Source: Colwellia sp.
GTDB taxonomy: Bacteria; Pseudomonadota; Gammaproteobacteria; Enterobacterales; Alteromonadaceae
DNA: 64,000 nt
Direction of reading: 5' to 3'
NCBI GenBank assembly: GCA_013215295.1
Contig: JABSOZ010000003.1
Span: forward strand, 496,001 to 560,000
Shown here: positions 7,321 to 30,777 of the stretch, piece by piece
How the letters are laid out: each line of letters opens with the position of its first letter
Numbering within the stretch: position 1 is the first letter of the stretch
Notes under the pieces: model-generated
The model's database searches: none
What the model saw: the letters and a program-made list of their open reading frames with translations, nothing else
Told to the model about the DNA's origin: nothing
Program-made: the position numbers and the translations under genes

Positions 7321-9450
7321 ATGCCGCAAGTTAATATAATAGCCATAGATGTAGCGCCAAGTAACGACTTTAGCTCTGTTCAATCAGGAGCAACAAGCTC
7401 ATCCAAAAATTCAAATAAAGATTTTGCTCAAGTGATCGAACAGCACTATAAAAGCCAGCAATCTCAACAAAGCGGCAAAAAACAAGAGACAAGTGGCAAT
7501 AAATCGAAACTTGATACTGATGTGCAACCTGAAAAGGACAATGTTCAAGGGAAATCTTCATCACGAGAGGCTCAGTCGACTGAAAGTGAGACAGGGAAAG
7601 TCACTGATGATGAAGTAAAAACAGAAAAGTTACTTTCTAGCGAGAAAGACAGTAATGAAAAAACAGTGCAGTTAGAGAGCCGTCAAAAAGAACCTACTGA
7701 GAAGCAAGAAGTCGTGTTATTCGATGTAAATAACACATCGTTACCTGCTAATAAGGAAGATGATAGTACACAGCAGCTCATGTCGTTATTATCTGCCTCT
7801 GATAAAATATTAAATGATGATGTTAAAAGTGATAGTACGGTTACGTCAAACGATAATATAAAACTGCCAACAGCACACGTTGAACGTAAGATCCCAGAAA
7901 AAACAGAATTAGATGCATTATTAAAGCAAGTACTAGGTGGAAACAATAAGGCAAAAACAGAGACATCTAAAGCAGAGACCTCTGATGATAGTTCAGGACA
8001 AATAAAAGCTGATAAACGCTCAACTGAACAGATGAAGGTTCCTACTGAAGTAACAAATCAAGCATTAATAACAAAAGTTGAATCCAACGTTAAGTCTTCG
8101 ATTGAGGTCGAGGGTGCTATTAAAAGTGAAAGTAAATTAGATTTGTCTGTGTCCACCGATAAAAATGATAAAAGTGATAAAAATGTAGAAATTTCATCAA
8201 TAAAAACTACAGATATTAACAATCAAGGGTTAAATCAAAAAAACAAAGATACTCAAACAGAAGTGACAAGTAAAACTGATCGTGTTGTCGATAGAGGTAA
8301 TAATGCTAGCAAACAACAGCTGTCGGCGAGTGAGCTTGAAGCTTTAGTCGCTGATGTGAAAAATACAACAACTGAACCTGAATTGGAAAATGTTAAAGCT
8401 GATCTTATAGGAAACCAAGATAAAGTTTTAACATTCGATAAAAGTAGTCAAAGTGATGCAAAAACTGATAATTCAGCATCTAAAAATACTGCCGGTTCAG
8501 AGTTATTATCAAAGGCTCAAAATGAACATGTAGTGAGTAAAGTTGATACAAGTATTGATACAGATAATTTAAATACAGATAAAGTCGCTTTTGCAGGTGT
8601 AAGCGTGTCGGGTGAAAAGCAAGCTCTGGAAAATACTCAAAATCAAAGTCGGGTGATAAATCAAGCCACCCACAAAGTAATTGAGCCGCAAACTTCTCAT
8701 ACTGGCGAACAATTTAAAGAGCAATCTAAAGAACAATCGTTAGATCAACAAAATCAGAAACAAGCACAAGTTTTATCTAATGCAGAAAAATTAGTTAATA
8801 ATGAAGTACTTGTTAAAGAGAAACCATTCAGTGAGCTTTTTGATAAAAAATTGGTCAGTACAAGTATTGAAAACACACTTAATAAAGATATTCACCAAGT
8901 TAATGAAGCAACAAAATCTGCGGCCTCTGCTGAAGAAATGATCACTAAATTGACCGGTGACCATGTTCAATCTACAACACAGTCAGTGACGAATGCAAAA
9001 CAAATTACTTCGTTACAAAATGAGGCTTTATCTGTTTATCGTAAAGACTTTACTAGCGAGTTAAAAGATAAAGTCATGGTCATGATGAATCAGAAACTTC
9101 AGCAAATTGAAATTCGTCTAGACCCTCAGGAATTAGGTAATGTAAACGTTAAAATAAATCTTCAAAATGAACAGGCGGTTATTAATTTTACTGTACAAAA
9201 CCAGCAAGCTAAAGAAGCCTTTGACCAAAATTTAGGCCGTTTAAAAGAGATGCTTGCTGAAAGTGGTGTTGATGTTGGAGATGCAAATGTTGAACAGCAA
9301 AGCAAACAAAATGACAACGAAGCACTCAGTGATGATCGACAACAAGGTGGTGAGAGTGATGTTGTAGATAATGAATTATCTGATTTAAGTGGGACCCAAA
9401 CACTAAATTTGGTCAAAGGTTCGTCAACTGGTGTAGATTACTATGCATAA
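7321..9450 (+). CDS. fliK: FliK flagellar hook-length control protein
   Basis: FliK is exported during hook assembly, measures hook length and switches export specificity at FlhB. Residues 1 to about 575 are low-complexity, rich in Ser, Lys, Asp, Glu, Gln and Thr with almost no hydrophobic stretches, consistent with an unfolded ruler. The C-terminal Flg_hook domain (VMVMMNQKLQQIEIRLDPQ, then ELGNVNVKINLQNEQAVINF) lies at about residues 583-655. At 709 residues it is much longer than the roughly 400-residue enteric protein. The N-terminal part is likely poorly alignable even to close relatives. Confidence 0.93.
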   Translation: MPQVNIIAIDVAPSNDFSSVQSGATSSSKNSNKDFAQVIEQHYKSQQSQQSGKKQETSGNKSKLDTDVQPEKDNVQGKSSSREAQSTESETGKVTDDEVKTEKLLSSEKDSNEKTVQLESRQKEPTEKQEVVLFDVNNTSLPANKEDDSTQQLMSLLSASDKILNDDVKSDSTVTSNDNIKLPTAHVERKIPEKTELDALLKQVLGGNNKAKTETSKAETSDDSSGQIKADKRSTEQMKVPTEVTNQALITKVESNVKSSIEVEGAIKSESKLDLSVSTDKNDKSDKNVEISSIKTTDINNQGLNQKNKDTQTEVTSKTDRVVDRGNNASKQQLSASELEALVADVKNTTTEPELENVKADLIGNQDKVLTFDKSSQSDAKTDNSASKNTAGSELLSKAQNEHVVSKVDTSIDTDNLNTDKVAFAGVSVSGEKQALENTQNQSRVINQATHKVIEPQTSHTGEQFKEQSKEQSLDQQNQKQAQVLSNAEKLVNNEVLVKEKPFSELFDKKLVSTSIENTLNKDIHQVNEATKSAASAEEMITKLTGDHVQSTTQSVTNAKQITSLQNEALSVYRKDFTSELKDKVMVMMNQKLQQIEIRLDPQELGNVNVKINLQNEQAVINFTVQNQQAKEAFDQNLGRLKEMLAESGVDVGDANVEQQSKQNDNEALSDDRQQGGESDVVDNELSDLSGTQTLNLVKGSSTGVDYYA

Positions 9451-9536
9451 ATGACAAAACTCATTGGCTAGCTGACGATTCAACGATATAGTTGACTTAA
9501 AGTAAACCTCACATATAAATAGATATTTAAGGCTTC

Positions 9537-10094
9537 ATGATGGCTGATGAAAAAGGCGAAGGTAAAGAGTTAGAGTTAGACGGCAAAGGCAAAAGCAAAA
9601 AAATGATCATTATCATTGCTGCTGTTGTGATTTTAGCTGTTGGAGGTGGAGCAGCATTCTTTTTTATGGGTGGTGATGATGTTTCTCAAGAACAACTTGA
9701 TGCTGAACTTGATAGCGCAGGTGCTGGTGATGGATCTGAAGGTGAAGCAGCTGAAGATGTAGCTGCAAGTATTGGTAGTGCATTATATGTACCTATGCCT
9801 AGACCTTTTCGCTTTAATGTTCCCGGTGCTGCTCGTGACAGATTTGTTGAAATCAGAGTCCAGCTATTAGTTCGAGGTTCTGATAATGAAGAAGCGGCCA
9901 AGAAACATGTGCCATTAATCGAAAGTACTCTGTTGTCGGTTTTTTCTCAGTCAAATGCTGATGATTTAGCGACCAGCGCAGGAAAGATCTCATTAAAACA
10001 AAAATCTTTAGTTGAAGTTCAAAAAATGATGAAAGATATTGAAGGTAACAATGTGGTCGAAAAAGTATTATTTACCGGTTTTGTAATGCAATAA
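9537..10094 (+). CDS. fliL: FliL flagellar basal body-associated protein
   Basis: FliL is a single-pass inner-membrane protein that surrounds the stator units and supports torque. A charged cytoplasmic N-terminus rich in Lys, Gly and Glu is followed by one membrane helix at about residues 23-44 (MIIIIAAVVILAVGGGAAFFF) and a periplasmic stomatin-like domain with RPFRFNVPGAARDRFVEIRVQLLVR. It ends in VVEKVLFTGFVMQ, the typical FliL ending. Two adjacent ATGs (9537 and 9540) could start it; the second gives MADEKGEG. An acidic Gly/Ala/Glu linker after the helix is lineage-specific in appearance. Confidence 0.95.
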   Translation: MMADEKGEGKELELDGKGKSKKMIIIIAAVVILAVGGGAAFFFMGGDDVSQEQLDAELDSAGAGDGSEGEAAEDVAASIGSALYVPMPRPFRFNVPGAARDRFVEIRVQLLVRGSDNEEAAKKHVPLIESTLLSVFSQSNADDLATSAGKISLKQKSLVEVQKMMKDIEGNNVVEKVLFTGFVMQ

Positions 10095-10137
10095 GGCCAT
10101 TAGATAAGACGATGGATTTAACTAAAGAGACTATTCA

Positions 10138-11208
10138 GTGAGTGATTTATTATCTCAAGACGAAATTGATGCGCTATTACATGGTGTCGATGACGTTGAA
10201 GAAGAGGAAGTAACTGAGGACTTTGCCCAAGAAGAGGGCGGTACGTCTGATTATGACTTTTCATCACAAGATCGCATTGTTCGTGGTCGAATGCCCACCT
10301 TGGAGATGGTTAACGAACGTTTTGCCCGCCATATGCGTATCAGCTTATTTAATATGATGAGACGTACAGCTGAAGTATCAATTAATGGTATTCAGATGAT
10401 AAAATTTGGCGAGTATGTTCATACATTATTTGTTCCTACCAGTTTGAATATGGTGCGTTTTCGTCCATTAAAAGGTACTGCATTAATTACCATGGAAGCA
10501 CGATTAGTGTTTATTTTGGTAGATAATTTCTTTGGTGGTGATGGGCGTTATCATGCAAAAATTGAAGGCCGTGAATTTACGCCAACAGAACGTCGTATTA
10601 TTCAAATGCTATTAAAATTGATTTTTGAGGATTACAAAGAAGCATGGTCTCCGGTTATGGATGTATCTTTCGAGTATTTAGACTCTGAAGTAAATCCATC
10701 AATGGCAAATATTGTCAGTCCAACAGAAGTGGTCGTTATTAGCTCTTTTCATATTGAACTTGATGGTGGCGGTGGTGACTTTCACGTAGCTTTACCTTAC
10801 TCGATGCTTGAACCCATTCGTGAGCTACTCGATGCCGGCGTACAAAGTGATAAAGAAGACACTGACATGCGTTGGTCGAAAGCACTGCGTGATGAAATCA
10901 TGGATGTACCCGTAGAATTATCAACGAAATTTATCTCTGTAGATCTCCCGTTACATAAGATTATGGATTTAGAGGAAGGTGATATTATTCCGATTGAGAT
11001 GCCAGAGCATATTACGGTGTTAATTGAAGGTTTACCGTCTTTTAGAGCAAAATTAGGACGTAGTAGAGATAATGTAGCGATTAAAATATCTGAGAAGATT
11101 AAACGTCCTGAGTCAGTTAAGAACGAATTAACCATATTAACTAAAGGTGGCAAACGTTTAGATAGCGATGCAGATTTACACCTTTTAGATGATGATTTTG
11201 ATTATTAA
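10138..11208 (+). CDS. fliM: FliM flagellar motor switch protein
   Basis: FliM is the C-ring component that binds phosphorylated CheY and flips motor direction. The GTG start gives MSDLLSQDEIDALLHG, the conserved CheY-P docking peptide, which fixes the start. The middle CheC-like domain (RFARHMRISLFNMMRR, and LVFILVDNFFGGDGRYHAKIEGREFT with the GGxG loop) is followed by a C-terminal SpoA domain that pairs with FliN. The length of 356 residues is normal. The N-terminal peptide closely resembles three repeats inside CheA of the same locus. Confidence 0.98.
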   Translation: MSDLLSQDEIDALLHGVDDVEEEEVTEDFAQEEGGTSDYDFSSQDRIVRGRMPTLEMVNERFARHMRISLFNMMRRTAEVSINGIQMIKFGEYVHTLFVPTSLNMVRFRPLKGTALITMEARLVFILVDNFFGGDGRYHAKIEGREFTPTERRIIQMLLKLIFEDYKEAWSPVMDVSFEYLDSEVNPSMANIVSPTEVVVISSFHIELDGGGGDFHVALPYSMLEPIRELLDAGVQSDKEDTDMRWSKALRDEIMDVPVELSTKFISVDLPLHKIMDLEEGDIIPIEMPEHITVLIEGLPSFRAKLGRSRDNVAIKISEKIKRPESVKNELTILTKGGKRLDSDADLHLLDDDFDY

Positions 11209-11259
11209 TAATTTTATTAAAGCAAAAGTAGATAATAAAGTAAATTTGAGGCCAATGGC

Positions 11260-11649
11260 ATGAGTGATAAAGATGATGATTTAGGTATGTGGGATGAGGC
11301 TATGGATGAACAAGCCGAAGCCAAAGCCGAAGCCGAAACTGTTGAGTTAGAAGAGCTTGAAGAAGATTCGCCGATCACCGGTGAAGAAAAGCGCAAACTC
11401 GATGCAATTTTAGATATTCCCGTGACGATTTCGATGGAAGTTGGTCGTAGCCATATTAGTATTCGTAATTTATTACAACTAAACCAAGGCTCTGTTGTTG
11501 AACTGGATCGAGTAGCTGGTGAATCACTTGATGTTTTAGTTAATGGTACTTTAATCGCGCATGGTGAGGTTGTCGTAGTAAACGATAAATTTGGTATTCG
11601 ATTAACGGATGTTATTAGTCAAATTGAACGCATTAAAAAGTTAAAGTAA
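11260..11649 (+). CDS. fliN: FliN flagellar motor switch protein
   Basis: FliN completes the C ring and helps dock FliH-FliI. The 129-residue product has an acidic, Ala/Glu-rich N-terminal tail and a C-terminal SpoA domain from about residue 48 (LDAILDIPVTISMEVGRSHISIRNLL) to VNDKFGIRLTDVISQIERIKKL. The stop codon overlaps the fliO start by one base (TAATG), suggesting coupling. The length is typical of gammaproteobacteria. Confidence 0.98.
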   Translation: MSDKDDDLGMWDEAMDEQAEAKAEAETVELEELEEDSPITGEEKRKLDAILDIPVTISMEVGRSHISIRNLLQLNQGSVVELDRVAGESLDVLVNGTLIAHGEVVVVNDKFGIRLTDVISQIERIKKLK

Positions 11650-20839: not shown

Positions 20840-20900
20840 GTAAAGTTAAGTAGAATATAAATATAATTCGATTTTTAAAATGTTCTCACCGGAGGGTGCC

Positions 20901-21284
20901 TTGGATAAAAATATGAAAGTTCTTGTCGTTGATGATTTTTCAACCATGAGACGTATCGTGAAAAACTTGTTACGGGATTTAGGCTTTACTAACATTTCTG
21001 AAGCAGATGATGGAAGTACTGCTTTACCAATGTTAAAGGAAGGTTCTTTTGATTTTGTTGTAACTGACTGGAATATGCCTGGTATGCAAGGTATTGATTT
21101 GCTAAAAGCAATTCGTGCTGACGCAAATCTATCCCATATTCCTGTATTACTCATCACTGCCGAAGCAAAGAAAGAACAAATTGTGATGGCAGCTCAAGCA
21201 GGCGTTAATGGTTATATTGTTAAACCATTCACTGCAGCAACGTTAAGCGCTAAATTAGATAAAATATTTGAACGTTTAGGATAA
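20901..21284 (+). CDS. cheY: CheY chemotaxis response regulator
   Basis: CheY is the diffusible single-domain response regulator that, when phosphorylated by CheA, binds FliM and changes rotation. The ORF track starts at ATG 20880, but a perfect GGAGG site at 20891-20895 sits five bases before an in-frame TTG at 20901. That TTG gives [18 protein letters not shown], the usual CheY N-terminus, so it is the chosen start. The phospho-acceptor Asp is in [11 protein letters not shown]; Thr in [11 protein letters not shown] and Lys in GYIVKPFT complete the active site. Confidence 0.95.
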
Positions 21285-21332: not shown

Positions 21333-22076
21333 ATGAGTGTGGATACAGGTGTGCATGTTTCTTTAGAAGAAGCGAAATTGTTGGTCGAGTATTTAGAAAC
21401 TGGTCAACAAGAAAAGGCAGACGAATTAATAGCAGAAATTCAAAATCCAATTAATTCAGAGTTGTTTGCAGAAATAGGCAAGCTAACACGCCAGTTACAT
21501 GATTCATTAAATAATTTTCAATTAGACTCTCGGTTGAGTGATTTAGCGACAGCTGATATTCCCGATGCTAAAGAGCGTCTAAACTATGTTATTACTCGTA
21601 CGGAAGAAGCAGCAAATAAAACAATGGATGCAGTTGAATCTATTTTTCCTGTTGTTGACACCATACAAAAGCAAATAAAAGCAGTTAATCCGTTATGGCA
21701 AAAATTAATGCATAATAAATTGGATTTACCTGAATTTAAAAGCTTATGCATTGATATAGATATACTATTAAAAACGACGGACAAAGAATCGGTGCGTATG
21801 CATGATTTAATGACTGATGTTTTAATGGCACAAGATTTTCAAGATTTAACCGGACAAGTTATTCGTAAAGTTATTGATCTAGTTCGTGAAGTAGAAGATA
21901 GCTTAATTGGCATGTTAACCGCTTTTGGTATTTCGCCTGAAAGTAGTTCAGAGCCAAGTAAACCCAAATTTGGTGAAAACTTAGTTGAAGGTCCGATCGT
22001 TAATGCAGCACAACGTGATGATGTTGTCGCTGATCAAGATGATGTCGATGACCTTTTATCAAGTTTAGGATTTTAA
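21333..22076 (+). CDS. cheZ: CheZ CheY-P phosphatase
   Basis: CheZ removes phosphate from CheY-P and sets signal decay. The 247-residue product is mostly long helices. The catalytic stretch VLMAQDFQDLTGQVIRKVIDLV, with the essential Gln in DFQDLTGQ, lies at about residues 164-187. The C-terminus ends DQDDVDDLLSSLGF, the CheY-binding peptide. The linker before it is Ser/Pro-rich. It sits between cheY and cheA as in related flagellar clusters. Confidence 0.97.
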   Translation: MSVDTGVHVSLEEAKLLVEYLETGQQEKADELIAEIQNPINSELFAEIGKLTRQLHDSLNNFQLDSRLSDLATADIPDAKERLNYVITRTEEAANKTMDAVESIFPVVDTIQKQIKAVNPLWQKLMHNKLDLPEFKSLCIDIDILLKTTDKESVRMHDLMTDVLMAQDFQDLTGQVIRKVIDLVREVEDSLIGMLTAFGISPESSSEPSKPKFGENLVEGPIVNAAQRDDVVADQDDVDDLLSSLGF

Positions 22077-22089
22077 TAGGAGTTGCTGG

Positions 22090-24189
22090 ATGTCATTTGA
22101 GCAAGATGAAGAGATTCTTCAGGATTTTTTAATTGAAGCTGGAGAAATACTTGAAACGCTTTCGGAACAACTTGTAGAACTTGAAAACGACCCTGATAAT
22201 GCTGAATTATTAAATGCTATATTTAGAGGATTTCACACAGTTAAAGGTGGAGCAGGATTTTTAGCACTACATAATTTAGTTGATGTTTGTCATGGAGCAG
22301 AGAACATTTTCGATCTGTTACGTACCAAGCAACGTAGTGTAAATGCAAGTTTGATGGATGTTATTTTACAAGCACTTGATATTATCAATGAGATGTTTGT
22401 ACAAGTTCAAAATGGTGAACAACTTGATAAAGCTGATGCTACGTTACTTGCAGAGCTTGAGCGTTTAAGTCAACCTGAAGGGAAAGAAGAAGTTTCAGAA
22501 CCTGTTATTGTTGGATCTTTAGCAGCGACGGCTGGAGCATCTAATGATGAAATGTCAGAAGATGACTTTGAACGTCTCCTCGACGAACTTCATGGCAGTG
22601 GTGGAACTGCTTCAGTTCAAACACCTGTACAAAAAACTGAGGTGATATCCTCAGACAGCAATGATATATCAGACGACGAATTTGAATCTTTACTCGACGA
22701 ACTTCATGGACAAGGTGCATTTTCACCTGAAGTCGCGTCCAATACTTCAAATAACCCATCCTCGTCTAATCGTGCATCATCTGATGAAATAAGTGATGAT
22801 GATTTTGAAGCTTTATTGGATGAGTTACATGGTCAAGGACAAGCCCCGAAATTATCTGTATCCCCTGTGCCAACTGCGCCTAAAGCACCTCCCGTTCAAC
22901 CTGTAGCGAAAACAACTGCCCCGGTTCAACCTATAGCTAAAGCTAAAACACCAGTTAAAAAGCCGGTTAAAGAAAAAACGCCAGCTAAACCAGTGCAGGG
23001 TGAAACTACTGTAAGGGTTGATACAAAACGTCTAGACCAGATAATGAATATGGTCGGCGAACTTGTCTTAGTAAGAAATCGCCTAACAAGCTTAGGTTTG
23101 ACTAAAGATGATGAAGATTTAACAAAAGCAGTTTCTAACCTTGATGCGGTAACAACTGATTTACAAGGTGCGGTAATGAAAACCCGCATGCAACCTATCA
23201 AGAAAGTTTTTGGGCGTTTCCCTCGAGTTGTTCGAGATTTAGCGCGCAGTTTAAATAAAGAAATTAGACTAGAACTTATAGGTGAAGAAACAGATTTAGA
23301 TAAAAACTTAGTTGAGGCACTAGCTGATCCTTTAGTGCATTTAGTGCGAAATTCTGTTGATCATGGCATTGAAGCTCCAGATAAACGCGAATCTATGGGG
23401 AAACCCAGAGAAGGTGTCGTTATTCTTTCTGCTTCACAAGAAGGTGACCATATATTGCTAACCATCAAAGATGATGGCGCAGGAATGAATGCTGAAAAAC
23501 TAAAAGAAATTGCAATTGAACGTGGTGTTCTCGATGTTGATTCAGCAGCGAGAATGTCAGACAAAGAAGCTTTTAGTTTGATTTTTGCACCGGGTTTTTC
23601 TACTAAAACGGAAATATCTGAAGTTTCAGGCCGCGGTGTCGGCATGGATGTTGTGAAAACCAAAATCACACAGTTAAATGGTACGGTAAGTATAGATTCT
23701 GAAATGGGTGTGGGTACAGTCTTAGAGATTAAAGTACCACTAACATTAGCAATTTTACCGACATTAATGGTCGTTGTTGGAAAGCAGACATTTGCATTGC
23801 CGCTTGCGGGCGTTAATGAAATCTTCCACCTTGATCTAACCAAAACCAATCTTGTGGATGGACAATTAACGATAATTGTACGTGAAAAAGCTATCCCACT
23901 ATTTTATTTAGATCAGTGGTTAGTTCGTGATTATGTTGAGAAGAAAAGAGAGAAAGGACACGTTGTAATCGTTCAATTAGGTAATCAGCAAGTTGGTTTT
24001 GTTGTTGATAGCTTGATAGGTCAGGAAGAAGTTGTCATTAAGCCACTTGACCGACTATTACATGGCACACCAGGTATGGCAGGTGCCACAATTACAAGTG
24101 ATGGTGGCATTGCGCTAATTGTTGACGTACCTAACATGCTTAAATTTTACACAAAGAAATCTTTTGCTAATAAAAAATTACGCTCTTAA
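22090..24189 (+). CDS. cheA: CheA chemotaxis histidine kinase with three acidic docking-like repeats
   Basis: CheA is the kinase that links receptors to CheY and CheB. P1 (HPt) carries the phosphorylated His49 in FHTVKGGAGF. P3 begins near residue 308 (VDTKRLDQIMNMVGELVLVRNR). P4 shows the N box (HLVRNSVDHGIE, about residue 414), DDGAGM and GRGVGMDVVK. P5 is a CheW-like domain at the C-terminus. Between P1 and P3 no P2-like fold is evident; instead residues 150-250 contain three copies of a motif (DDFERLLDELHG, DEFESLLDELHG, DDFEALLDELHG) with Phe at 160, 198 and 239. A Pro/Lys/Ala-rich linker follows. The 699-residue length is within range. Confidence 0.97.
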   Translation: MSFEQDEEILQDFLIEAGEILETLSEQLVELENDPDNAELLNAIFRGFHTVKGGAGFLALHNLVDVCHGAENIFDLLRTKQRSVNASLMDVILQALDIINEMFVQVQNGEQLDKADATLLAELERLSQPEGKEEVSEPVIVGSLAATAGASNDEMSEDDFERLLDELHGSGGTASVQTPVQKTEVISSDSNDISDDEFESLLDELHGQGAFSPEVASNTSNNPSSSNRASSDEISDDDFEALLDELHGQGQAPKLSVSPVPTAPKAPPVQPVAKTTAPVQPIAKAKTPVKKPVKEKTPAKPVQGETTVRVDTKRLDQIMNMVGELVLVRNRLTSLGLTKDDEDLTKAVSNLDAVTTDLQGAVMKTRMQPIKKVFGRFPRVVRDLARSLNKEIRLELIGEETDLDKNLVEALADPLVHLVRNSVDHGIEAPDKRESMGKPREGVVILSASQEGDHILLTIKDDGAGMNAEKLKEIAIERGVLDVDSAARMSDKEAFSLIFAPGFSTKTEISEVSGRGVGMDVVKTKITQLNGTVSIDSEMGVGTVLEIKVPLTLAILPTLMVVVGKQTFALPLAGVNEIFHLDLTKTNLVDGQLTIIVREKAIPLFYLDQWLVRDYVEKKREKGHVVIVQLGNQQVGFVVDSLIGQEEVVIKPLDRLLHGTPGMAGATITSDGGIALIVDVPNMLKFYTKKSFANKKLRS

Positions 24190-24255: not shown

Positions 24256-25416
24256 ATGCCCTATAAGGTGTTGGTTGTTGATGACTCGAGCTTTTTTAGA
24301 CGTCGAGTTACGGATATTTTAAATAAAGATCCGAACCTTACCGTTATTGATGTTGCTATAAACGGCAAAGATGCTGTTGAAAAGGCTATATCTTTAAAGC
24401 CTGACGTCATCACTATGGATATTGAAATGCCATTACTTAATGGTATTGAAGCAGTGAAGCAAATAATGGCCAAAGCGCCAACTTCTATCTTAATGTTTTC
24501 ATCGTTAACCCATCAAGGTGCAAATGCAACATTAGAAGCTCTAGAAGCTGGAGCGCTTGATTTTTTACCGAAAAAATTTAGTGAAATAGCTAAGACAACT
24601 GATGATGCAGGAAGTGTGCTCCGTCAGCGTGTTGTTGAGTTAGCAAAAACTAAAGGTTCGCTGAGAAGACAGTCCGTGTCGCGAGTTCAATCGTCAGCGA
24701 GAACAGCGACTTCAACCGCGACTAAATCAATAAATAAATTCGATAAACAACCTAGAACCTCACTGCGTTCTGACAGAGTTGAGACTGCACATATTGAAAA
24801 GATCAGCAGTCAAGCGGTAAAAAGAAGTTCAGGCAAAAACTATCAACTGCTTGCCATTGGAACTTCTACAGGGGGACCAATTGCATTACAAAAAATATTG
24901 ACGCAATTACCAGCGGACTTTCCGTTACCCATTATTTTAATACAACATATGCCAGCCGCTTTTACTTTTGCATTTGCAAATCGTTTAAACTCTTTGTGTA
25001 AAATTAACGTAAAAGAAGCTGAGCATGGTGATATTTTACAGCCGGGCTGCGCATACCTTGCACCTGGTGGTCGTCAAATGATTATTGATGGTACTGCTAA
25101 TTTAGCTAAGTTGAAAATTATTGAGGATAACTCTGAAAAAATAGCATTTAAACCAAGTGTGGATGTGAGTTTTGGGTCTGCAGCTAAAATATTTGGTGGT
25201 TCAGTGCTTGGCGTTATATTAACTGGAATGGGATCAGATGGCAGGGAAGGTGCTCGAATGTTAAAAGGTAAAGGGGCAACAATATGGGCACAAGATGAAG
25301 CCTCGTGTGTTGTTTATGGAATGCCACAAGCCGTTACTGTTGCAGGTATTTCAGTATTATCTTTAGCACTGGAAGATGTTAGCCCAAGTATTGTGAAGGA
25401 AGTTGATGATGGATAA
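24256..25416 (+). CDS. cheB: CheB receptor-modification methylesterase
   Basis: CheB demethylates (and deamidates) chemoreceptors and is activated by CheA phosphorylation. The N-terminal receiver domain has the phospho-Asp in [13 protein letters not shown] at about residue 57. A basic Ser/Arg/Thr-rich linker runs from about residue 130 to 190. The catalytic domain shows Ser in GTSTGGP, His in LIQHMPAAF and Asp in [10 protein letters not shown]. No cheR is in the window. The stop overlaps the motC start. Confidence 0.97.
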
Positions 25417-27155: not shown

Positions 27156-27929
27156 TTGGTAGTATGGACCGTAGCAAATCAGAAAGGTGGCGTTGGTAAA
27201 ACCACTACAACAATCTCCTTAGGAGGCTTATTAGCAGAGCAGGGCTATAGAGTCTTACTTGTTGATACAGATCCACATGCATCTTTAAGTTATTATTTTG
27301 GCATTGAATCTGAAGATCTTGAATTAAGTGTTTATGATTTATTTGTTCAAGTTTCAAGTAAAGAACAGATAATGCAAAGTTTATGTCCAACGAAATATGA
27401 AAATATAGATATACTGCCGGCAACGATGGGGTTAGCAACTTTAGACCGCTCACTTGGTAATAAGGGTGGAATGGGTCTAGTTTTAAAGAAAGCGATCAAA
27501 AAGTTATCTGGTGAATATGATTATGTTTTGATTGATTGTCCACCTATTTTAGGCGTGCTTATGGTGAATGCTTTAGCAGCATCTGAGCGCATTATAGTTC
27601 CCGTACAAACTGAATTTTTGGCATTGAAAGGCTTAGACCGTATGATGAAAACTATGGATATCATGCAAATTGAGCAAGATAAGCCATTTAAATATACTAT
27701 TGTCCCTACCATGTTTGATAAACGAACTAAGGCTTCATTAATTACGTATAGGAAGTTACAAGAGTTATACGATGACAGTGTTTGGGCAGGTGTAATACCG
27801 GTAGATACTAATTTTAGAAACGCAAGCTATTCATTACAAATTCCATCAGACTATGCACCTTTAACGCGTGGTGTAAGTGCTTATAAAAAATTATTAAGCA
27901 GTTTATTAGAACTTCAAAAATTAGGTTAA
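27156..27929 (+). CDS. parC: ParC-like ParA-family ATPase, chemotaxis array positioning
   Basis: This is a ParA/MinD-family ATPase with an intact deviant Walker A (NQKGGVGKTT at about residues 8-17), VDTDPHASLSYYFGI, and IDCPPILGVLMVNAL. The start is TTG (27156) giving MVVWTVANQKGG. In Vibrio and relatives the equivalent gene encodes ParC, which brings chemosensory arrays to the cell pole; it is unrelated to topoisomerase IV ParC. The assignment comes from its place between the stator genes and the CheW-domain gene. No ParB-like gene follows, so a plasmid-type partition role is unlikely. Confidence 0.88.
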   Translation: MVVWTVANQKGGVGKTTTTISLGGLLAEQGYRVLLVDTDPHASLSYYFGIESEDLELSVYDLFVQVSSKEQIMQSLCPTKYENIDILPATMGLATLDRSLGNKGGMGLVLKKAIKKLSGEYDYVLIDCPPILGVLMVNALAASERIIVPVQTEFLALKGLDRMMKTMDIMQIEQDKPFKYTIVPTMFDKRTKASLITYRKLQELYDDSVWAGVIPVDTNFRNASYSLQIPSDYAPLTRGVSAYKKLLSSLLELQKLG

Positions 27930-27936
27930 ATAACCA

Positions 27937-28725
27937 ATGGCAAAATCACTAGCTGCAAGTAAAAAGCTTATGCAGAATTATTTATCAGAGTTGCTGACCG
28001 AAGAACAGCACGAATCTGAAGTGCCAGTTGCACCCGTAAAAGAAAAAATACAACAACCATTAGAAAAACTGTTACAAAAAGTAGATATTACTGAGAATAT
28101 AGCAGATCCATTAGACGAATCGATTCAAACGGTAAGAAGTTCTGTAAATCAGCAAACAGCAAAAGTTATAAAATCACCCATTAAAGAAATAGTTAAAGAA
28201 AATATCACAATAGATAAACCACTTAAAACCAGAAAAAGTGATCAGCCATTAATTGTTAAACAAGCAAAAGGCTATCGAAGTGGCAGTTTTCAAGCCATGT
28301 TCTTTGATGTTGCTGGTCTAACTATAGCTGTACCATTAATTGAATTAGGTGGAATACATAACGATGATAAAACGACAAGTTTAATGGGTAAACCAGATTG
28401 GTTTACGGGTGTAATGTTACATCGAGATGAAAAAATCAATGTTGTGAATACGGCTTTGTGGGTAATGCCAGAAAAATGTGACGAAAAGTTAAAAAATTCG
28501 CTAAACTATCAATATGTTGTCATGCTCGGTAATAGTCATTGGGGATTGTCAGCTGAAAATTTGGTAGATACAGTGACGTTAGATCAAGAAGATGTAAAAT
28601 GGCTAGATGCGCCGAACAAACGACCTTGGTTAGCAGGTTTAGTCAAAGAACGTATGTGTGCGTTGCTTGATGTTGAATCTTTGATTAAGTTACTTGACGC
28701 AGGCGCAAATATTAACCAAGATTAA
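27937..28725 (+). CDS. parP: ParP-like CheW-domain protein
   Basis: The 262-residue protein has a charged, probably unstructured N-terminal half (residues 1-105) and a C-terminal CheW-like domain (FQAMFFDVAGLTIAVPLIELGGI, then WFTGVMLHRDEKINVVN and VMLGNSHWGLSAENL). ParP in Vibrio joins CheA and receptors to ParC and keeps arrays at the pole. It starts 7 bases after the parC-like gene, so the two are co-translated. The domain is divergent from the CheW encoded next door, which supports a distinct adaptor role. Confidence 0.87.
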   Translation: MAKSLAASKKLMQNYLSELLTEEQHESEVPVAPVKEKIQQPLEKLLQKVDITENIADPLDESIQTVRSSVNQQTAKVIKSPIKEIVKENITIDKPLKTRKSDQPLIVKQAKGYRSGSFQAMFFDVAGLTIAVPLIELGGIHNDDKTTSLMGKPDWFTGVMLHRDEKINVVNTALWVMPEKCDEKLKNSLNYQYVVMLGNSHWGLSAENLVDTVTLDQEDVKWLDAPNKRPWLAGLVKERMCALLDVESLIKLLDAGANINQD

Positions 28726-28816: not shown

Positions 28817-29308
28817 ATGGCTGATGAAAGACGCAATGCAAATGAAAACGTAGACAATGATGAAGTGTTACAATGGGTAACCTTTAAACTTGATAGTGAA
28901 ACCTACGGTATTAATGTGATGCAGGTGCAAGAAGTTTTACGTTATAGTGAAATTGCACCGGTGCCAGGGGCACCAACCTATGTATTAGGTATCATTAATT
29001 TACGAGGTAATGTTGTAACTGTTATTGATACACGGCAACGATTTGGACTAAATCCTGCAGACATTACTGATAATACTCGTATTGTTATTATTGAAGCAGA
29101 GAAACAAGTTATCGGTATTTTGGTGGATAGTGTTGCTGAAGTAGTTTACCTCAAAGCATCTGAAATTGACGACGCTCCGAATGTAGGTAATGACGATAGC
29201 GCTAGATTTATTCAAGGCGTTTCAAATCGTGATGGTGAACTATTGATTTTGGTCGATCTAAATCAACTACTTTCTGACGACGAATGGGATGAACTTAAAC
29301 AGTTTTAG
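28817..29308 (+). CDS. cheW: CheW chemotaxis coupling protein
   Basis: CheW couples chemoreceptors to CheA. The 163-residue protein consists of one CheW domain: VLQWVTFKLDSETYGINVMQVQEVLRY, then PGAPTYVLGIINLRGNVVTVIDTRQRFGL, and IIEAEKQVIGILVDSV. A good AGAGGCAGG site precedes the ATG. Two inverted repeats follow or overlap its stop codon, marking the likely end of the chemotaxis transcript. Confidence 0.97.
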   Translation: MADERRNANENVDNDEVLQWVTFKLDSETYGINVMQVQEVLRYSEIAPVPGAPTYVLGIINLRGNVVTVIDTRQRFGLNPADITDNTRIVIIEAEKQVIGILVDSVAEVVYLKASEIDDAPNVGNDDSARFIQGVSNRDGELLILVDLNQLLSDDEWDELKQF

Positions 29309-29973: not shown

Positions 29974-30777
29974 GTGAAAGTCGCAGCTATATTTTGTCAA
30001 CTCTTTAACCGTCAAGCTAAAAAAATAGTTACTGTTCTACTAGTATTATTTATTACTGCCTGTTCATCAACACCCTCTACTGACGATGGAAGTACTTCAG
30101 ATTCTAATGATCCATTAGAATCTATTAATCGTCCACTGTGGACATTTACTTGGGACTACGCGGATAAATATGTTTTGAAGCCAGCGTCAGAAACTTATGT
30201 TGAATATATGCCAACAGGTTTTAGAACGGGCTTATATAATGTTGCATTAAATTTAAATGAACCATCAACAATCATTAACAACCTTTTACAGGGAAAATTT
30301 AGCGATGCAGGGAAAAGTACAGGACGCTTTGTGCTTAACTCAACAATAGGGTTGTTTGGATTCTTTGATCCCGCAAGCGATTTTGACTGGATGCGAAACC
30401 AAGAGGAGTTTGGTGAAGTATTAGGGTCATATGGTGTCAGTGATGGACCTTACCTTATAGTCTTAGGGCCAAGCTCTGTTCGTGAAGAAGTCGGTGATTA
30501 TGTTGACAGCTACTACTGGCCTTTAGCCATCATTGATTTTTGGCCAAATTTGTTTCGTCTAGCAGTGTTAGGTCTTGAGACAAGAGCTTCCCTTGCAGAT
30601 CAAGAACAAATCATCAATGATTCTATTGATCCCTATGAGTTTGTTAAAAATGCTTATTTTCAGAATATGGAATTTAAAGTTTATGATGGAAATCCACCTA
30701 TCGTAATTGATAATGAATATGAAGATGAGATTGATAGTTTTTTAGATGAACTTGATGAACTGGACGATCTTGATTAA
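29974..30777 (+). CDS. mlaA: MlaA/VacJ outer-membrane phospholipid-transport lipoprotein
   Basis: MlaA removes misplaced phospholipids from the outer leaflet and passes them to MlaC, keeping outer-membrane asymmetry. The GTG start gives a lipoprotein signal with lipobox LFITAC at about residue 27. The MlaA domain follows: DPLESINRPLWTFTWDYADKYVLKP, GLYNVALNLNEPSTIINNLLQGK, FGEVLGSYGVSDGPYLIVLGPSS. The tail is acidic (DEIDSFLDELDELDDLD), longer than in E. coli. The other mla genes are not in the window, as is common for mlaA. Confidence 0.96.
   Translation: MKVAAIFCQLFNRQAKKIVTVLLVLFITACSSTPSTDDGSTSDSNDPLESINRPLWTFTWDYADKYVLKPASETYVEYMPTGFRTGLYNVALNLNEPSTIINNLLQGKFSDAGKSTGRFVLNSTIGLFGFFDPASDFDWMRNQEEFGEVLGSYGVSDGPYLIVLGPSSVREEVGDYVDSYYWPLAIIDFWPNLFRLAVLGLETRASLADQEQIINDSIDPYEFVKNAYFQNMEFKVYDGNPPIVIDNEYEDEIDSFLDELDELDDLD

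Follow-up and report, generated by a model that had tools for sequence, protein, structure and literature searches.

The chemotaxis kinase CheA of Colwellia sp. carries three short acidic peptides in the linker between its P1 and P3 domains, at the place where CheA proteins such as that of E. coli have a folded P2 domain. The peptides resemble the CheY-binding N-terminus of FliM, and docking of CheY is their most likely role. CheB is probably docked by them as well. The gene order in the window (the whole stretch of 64,000 nucleotides that was analysed) is flhA, flhF, flhG, fliA, cheY, cheZ, cheA, cheB, two motor genes, parC, parP and cheW (Table 1). The order flhF-flhG-fliA-cheY-cheZ-cheA-cheB-(mot)-parC-parP-cheW is that of a flagellar class F6 chemosensory system, a class assigned here by gene order and not by a class-specific model. 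Hpt, H-kinase_dim, HATPase_c and CheW are the sole Pfam domains of the protein, all above their curated cut-offs, and identify it as a CheA histidine kinase.

Table 1. Positions of the genes, domains and peptides discussed in the text (nucleotides of the window; residues of CheA)
Feature	Nucleotides	Strand	Residues	Remarks
FliM N-terminal peptide LSQDEIDALL	10150..10179	+		highest profile score outside CheA
cheY	20880..21284	+		proposed partner of the linker peptides
CheZ C-terminal tail DQDDVDDLLSSLGF	22032..22073	+		CheZ Pfam E 1.2e-74
cheA	22090..24189	+	699 aa in all	polar-flagellar chemotaxis kinase
CheA P1/Hpt			8-97	
CheA P1-P3 linker			about 125-305	
Motif copy 1, MSEDDFERLLDELHG	22552..22596	+	155-169	core DDFERLLDELHG, aa 158-169 (nt 22561-22596)
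Motif copy 2, ISDDEFESLLDELHG	22666..22710	+	193-207	core DEFESLLDELHG, aa 196-207 (nt 22675-22710)
Motif copy 3, ISDDDFEALLDELHG	22789..22833	+	234-248	core DDFEALLDELHG, aa 237-248 (nt 22798-22833)
CheA P3			306-365	
CheA P4			412-552	
CheA P5/CheW			559-684	
cheB	24256..25416	+		response regulator; alternative or additional candidate partner
parC	27156..27929	+		ParA-like ATPase of the polar positioning system; identity from position and similarity
parP	27937..28725	+		CheW-like AIF domain with conserved KRPWLAG segment; rival candidate partner of the linker

The original prediction placed three acidic repeats between P1 and P3, with the central Phe at residues 160, 198 and 239, and both the 12-mers and their positions are exact. 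The copies share 10-11 of 12 residues pairwise, and of the residues in common 3, 6 and 7 are encoded by different codons. The repeats are therefore kept at the protein level and do not stem from a recent DNA duplication. Conservation in the motif columns is 0.75, equal to that of P1 and P3-P5, compared with 0.33 in the remaining linker; nothing else between P1 and P3 is strongly conserved. The consensus from 190 CheA motifs is [DE]-I-[TS]-D-[DE]-E-F-E-A-L-L-D-x-L-H-G-K-G. The motif could in principle be a generic short helix, SHOCT-like or a low-complexity acidic repeat, acting only as a spacer or in self-association, and of 35 motif-bearing linkers 33 do match the Pfam SHOCT model with E <=0.01. 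The match in the window CheA scores 15.6 bits, under the Pfam gathering score of 27. A motif that is confined to CheA and keeps F, LL, H and G at fixed positions is too specific for a spacer; we regard this reading as hardly credible.

Pfam search finds no P2 in the window CheA. P2 or CheY-binding models match none of 35 motif-bearing linkers, versus 4 of 27 motif-free ones. This negative is weak by itself, because HMMER also misses the P2-like regions of other CheAs analysed here, and the sensitivity of HMMER and of PDB sequence search for P2 is low. The absence of P2 is carried rather by the linker sequence, with just 16% hydrophobic residues outside the motifs, and by a structure model. AlphaFold predicts the N-terminus of a related motif-bearing CheA (locus L049) as P1 followed by isolated short helices at the motifs, with no strands. 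The earlier statement that no P2-like fold is evident in the linker therefore stands. The two other CheAs of the same genome lack the motif; their linkers look P2-like by eye and are uncalled by HMMER.

In E. coli, P2 brings the apparent P1-CheY affinity from 900 µM to about 1.6 µM (PMC5705603), so losing the docking should cost something. CheAs without P2 make up more than half of all CheAs according to a survey whose accessible part names no peptide substitute for the domain (PMC10782961). The P2/CheY-binding domains of E. coli and T. maritima (PF09078, PF07194) occupy the same place between P1 and P3 and share with the peptides the proposed job of bringing CheY to P1. P2, however, is folded, about 70 residues long and as a rule present in one copy, whereas here 1-8 copies of a 15-residue helix are set in a disordered linker.

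The FliM N-terminus and the CheZ C-terminal tail are the known CheY-binding sites of their families. FliM of the window starts with LLSQDEIDALLHG and CheZ ends with the tail given in Table 1, both as originally claimed. A PSSM of the 190 CheA motifs, covering positions -5 to +4 around Phe, was scored over the 20,807 decamers of the window. The FliM decamer comes first after the CheA copies with 8.8, and the next non-CheA decamer reaches 4.1. The FliM match keeps the register of the CheA motif, including the S/T-x-x-E capping box and the preceding hydrophobic residue, a detail that goes beyond the original prediction. It is strong but not unique, because a few unrelated decamers equal or exceed its score when all loci serve as background. 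In 20 whole genomes, a pattern common to the CheA motif and FliM gives 86 matches (about 43 in cheA, 19 of FliM type and about 24 others), against 6 in the reversed control.

Over ten residues the FliM peptide (SQDEIDALL) and the CheA motif agree as hydrophobic, S/T cap, x, acid, E, hydrophobic, D/E, A, L, L. The CheA motif differs in having Phe for Ile and a D-x-L-H-G extension, and it stands in tandem inside a kinase linker, whereas the FliM peptide is single and terminal. The CheZ tail DDVDDLLSSLGF shares hydrophobic-[DE]-x-L-L, followed three positions later by a third Leu; unlike the CheA motif, it is single, at the extreme C-terminus, and despite the common core register its profile score is poor, making it a much weaker match. 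Of the core proposed for CheA, FliM and CheZ, the shared register survives and the variable gap of "one or two residues" does not, since the hydrophobic-[DE]-x-L-L spacing is identical in all three. The CheA peptides carry the sequence [DE]-hydrophobic-[DE]-x-L-L of FliM/CheZ-type CheY-binding peptides. Elsewhere in the window, the C-terminus of CheW (29270-29299) reads LSDDEWDELKQF and ranks second among the profile matches outside CheA, and comparable CheW tails occur in loci L101, L107, L130, L135 and L137. A protein encoded downstream of the cluster (29974-30777) has an acidic tail, EDEIDSFLDELDELDDLD, that matches the motif in part.

We propose that the P1-P3 linker would be a flexible tether with an array of short amphipathic helices acting as CheY docking peptides, and that this array would do the job of the folded P2 in E. 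coli CheA. Each [ST]-x-x-E-F-E-x-L-L-D-x-L-H-G helix would have a capping box and a preceding hydrophobic residue, like the FliM N-terminus. The face formed by Phe and Leu-Leu would lie on α4-β5-α5 of CheY, where FliM and CheZ also bind. With several copies on each chain and two chains in the dimer, the array would raise the local CheY concentration near P1, the P1 phosphate would thereby be handed on fast to CheY, and phosphorylated CheY would then depart to FliM or CheZ. We infer the CheY binding, the docking face, the multivalency and the kinetic role of the peptides. V. cholerae CheY3 binds FliM-N at α4-β5-α5, and CheZ shares this face (PMC3774744). The window CheY resembles CheY3, and V. 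cholerae CheY (4hns, 3to5) is among its closest solved structures.

The peptides might instead bind CheY-P and hold this product near the pole, as a local buffer or for short-range delivery to the polar motor, and not load the substrate. FliM and CheZ peptides favour CheY-P, whereas a docking site on the kinase should prefer unphosphorylated CheY, a point that counts against substrate docking. The profile match to FliM, and the closer resemblance of the motif to FliM/CheZ peptides than to a CheY-favouring domain, fit CheY-P binding. The loss of P2 would then stay uncompensated, and because Phe replaces Ile/Val the CheY-state preference of the motif cannot be read from its letters, which also counts against this reading; we judge it quite improbable.

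CheY docking by the peptides, the central claim of the original prediction, gains independent support from the FliM peptide being the best non-CheA match, from the lack of the motif in the other two CheAs, and from its persistence where CheZ or ParP is missing (see below). It gains nothing from AlphaFold. In a read-through of natural L049 letters, with cheY and cheA in one frame 49 codons apart (21 equivalent rows), the motif helices have pLDDT of about 74-81, compared with 75-83 for CheA alone, values that give confidence only and no readable contacts; adding CheY to L049 CheA thus brings no gain in motif pLDDT and gives no hint of the motifs being ordered by CheY, which speaks mildly against docking. 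In this locus (genome G101, 8477-11266) cheY lies directly upstream of cheA, and cheZ was not found anywhere in the genome.

The candidate partners differ in how closely they accompany the motif. cheY is present in 100 of 100 motif-bearing loci having enough downstream sequence. CheZ is absent genome-wide from G101 (three motif copies, 99% complete) and G022 (one copy, 100% complete). ParP was searched genome-wide with a 20-sequence profile, to which clear or likely members score 42-223 bits and CheW proteins, as background, about 20-36. No ParP was detected in at least eight genomes with a canonical CheA motif, from lineages that are not all independent: G010, G001, G022, G012, G348, Allochromatium palmeri, Dyella acidisoli and Acidithiobacillus YTS05. 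A search of their chemotaxis clusters found no parC there. L055 was dropped as a ParP-negative case, its ParP being on another contig of the genome, and so were the xanthomonads L158, L159 and L212, which retain parC together with a CheW-like protein whose N-terminus resembles that of ParP. The CheW/ParP-like protein adjoining parC in L158 (388-residue ORF, 13840, minus strand) has three TWDDLP[AD]EVI[YH]ET repeats in its N-terminal linker. Since the motif persists without ParP or without CheZ, binding of either cannot be the sole reason for its upkeep, and CheY and CheB remain.

These distributions also bear on whether the motifs are the core of CheA-LID. By binding ParP at its AIF domain, they would then retain CheA in the array and link the array to polar ParC. 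The CheA region to which ParP binds in Vibrio is located between P2 and P3 and is said to be exclusive to CheAs with ParC/ParP (PMC5706961, PMC7534058). It belongs to the linker that holds the motifs, in CheAs of the same class, and nothing besides the motifs is strongly conserved there. All 84 ParP-positive loci (84/84) have the motif, with no ParP-positive CheA lacking it, and copies are more numerous in these (mostly 3-4) than in ParP/ParC-negative CheAs (p = 0.002, kinship ignored; the 11 negatives include L055). The higher copy number counts against pure CheY docking, being expected if some copies bind ParP, and a second role of some copies as a ParP-binding LID is possible. However, CheA-LID is defined by ParP binding and by occurrence only with ParC/ParP, whereas the motif is kept in the eight or more genomes without detectable ParP genome-wide and without parC in the cluster. 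The accessible literature does not give the LID residues, and a LID role does not predict the similarity to FliM. As the main explanation of the motifs, it is unlikely.

CheB was found in 10 of 10 genomes tested, and because it is always present co-occurrence does not separate it from CheY. Recognition of FliM-like peptides is not known for CheB, and the FliM-like similarity points to CheY. In E. coli, CheB as well as CheY docks at P2 (PMC11978298). This speaks for a reading in which the peptides have CheB as their sole partner, or serve some other component of the array (CheW, CheV or a receptor, for example), but that reading is very improbable. Of the alternatives first offered, then, ParP does not hold as sole partner, while CheB is always there and copy number rises with ParP.

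The linker peptides are a property of this CheA class and not peculiar to this genome. The original prediction had called for a survey of repeat number, and among 120 CheAs, taken from the drawn genomes and 80 named loci, there is one copy in 7, two in 21, three in 62, four in 29 and eight in 1. A close CheA is present in 57 of 143 genomes of a class-wide draw, nearly all readable linkers having the motif. Carriers include Vibrio, Photobacterium, Shewanella, Alteromonas, Moritella, Marinobacter, Pseudomonas, Stutzerimonas, Stenotrophomonas, Dyella and Acidithiobacillus. At the DNA level the motif is found in 38 of 299 Pseudomonadota genomes searched, at most three times per genome and mostly as 2-3 clustered matches, and the reversed control has no match among the genomes listed. 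All matches but one are gammaproteobacterial, and the loci fetched around them hold cheA. The single exception (G379, DFEKLLEKFKG) looks like chance, no cheA being found in the region, and was set aside. The CheA with about eight copies (L043, genome G033) has 1073 residues and a long PAAAPAK repeat after the motifs. A search of the open-access literature found no earlier mention of the motif sequences; a prior description may stand in the original LID paper or its review.

P2-less CheAs of other lineages also have linker peptides. Nearly all Campylobacterales CheAs examined carry [ML]-S-x-[DE]-[ED]-[VI]-E-x-E-I-[EA]-[RH]-L-[LI], and essentially all betaproteobacterial ones have one Trp motif, [DEN]-W-x-x-[LM]-[YHFL]-x-x-[VLI], in an otherwise unconserved linker. 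The former recalls FliM LSQEEID, whereas the latter has no close FliM match. The Campylobacterales type DYxNMSxEEVEAEIERLL occurs in L279-L308 and also in L208, L211, L214, L234 and L247, with two copies in Sulfuricurvum (L208). The betaproteobacterial PDWxxLYxALTG type occurs in L249-L278 and also in L225, L228, L232, L242 and L245. One Aquificota CheA (L237) has SLDDLLDRYGF in its linker, close to the CheZ C-terminal tail. We suggest tentatively that P2-less CheAs may commonly swap the docking domain for lineage-specific short linear docking peptides, in which case kinase and CheY outputs would address CheY through one class of motif. Equally tentatively, the lineage versions might be the tandem FliM-like Phe motif in polar-flagellar Gammaproteobacteria, the Campylobacterales peptide and the betaproteobacterial Trp motif.

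How P2-less CheAs recruit CheY would find a concrete and easily testable answer in a conserved peptide array. Unlike in E. coli, the valency of such an array varies, from one to eight copies, and the array is shared by Pseudomonas, Vibrio, Shewanella and many other polar swimmers. The ParP-binding LID must fall in the same linker, and the docking peptides invite a re-reading of it.
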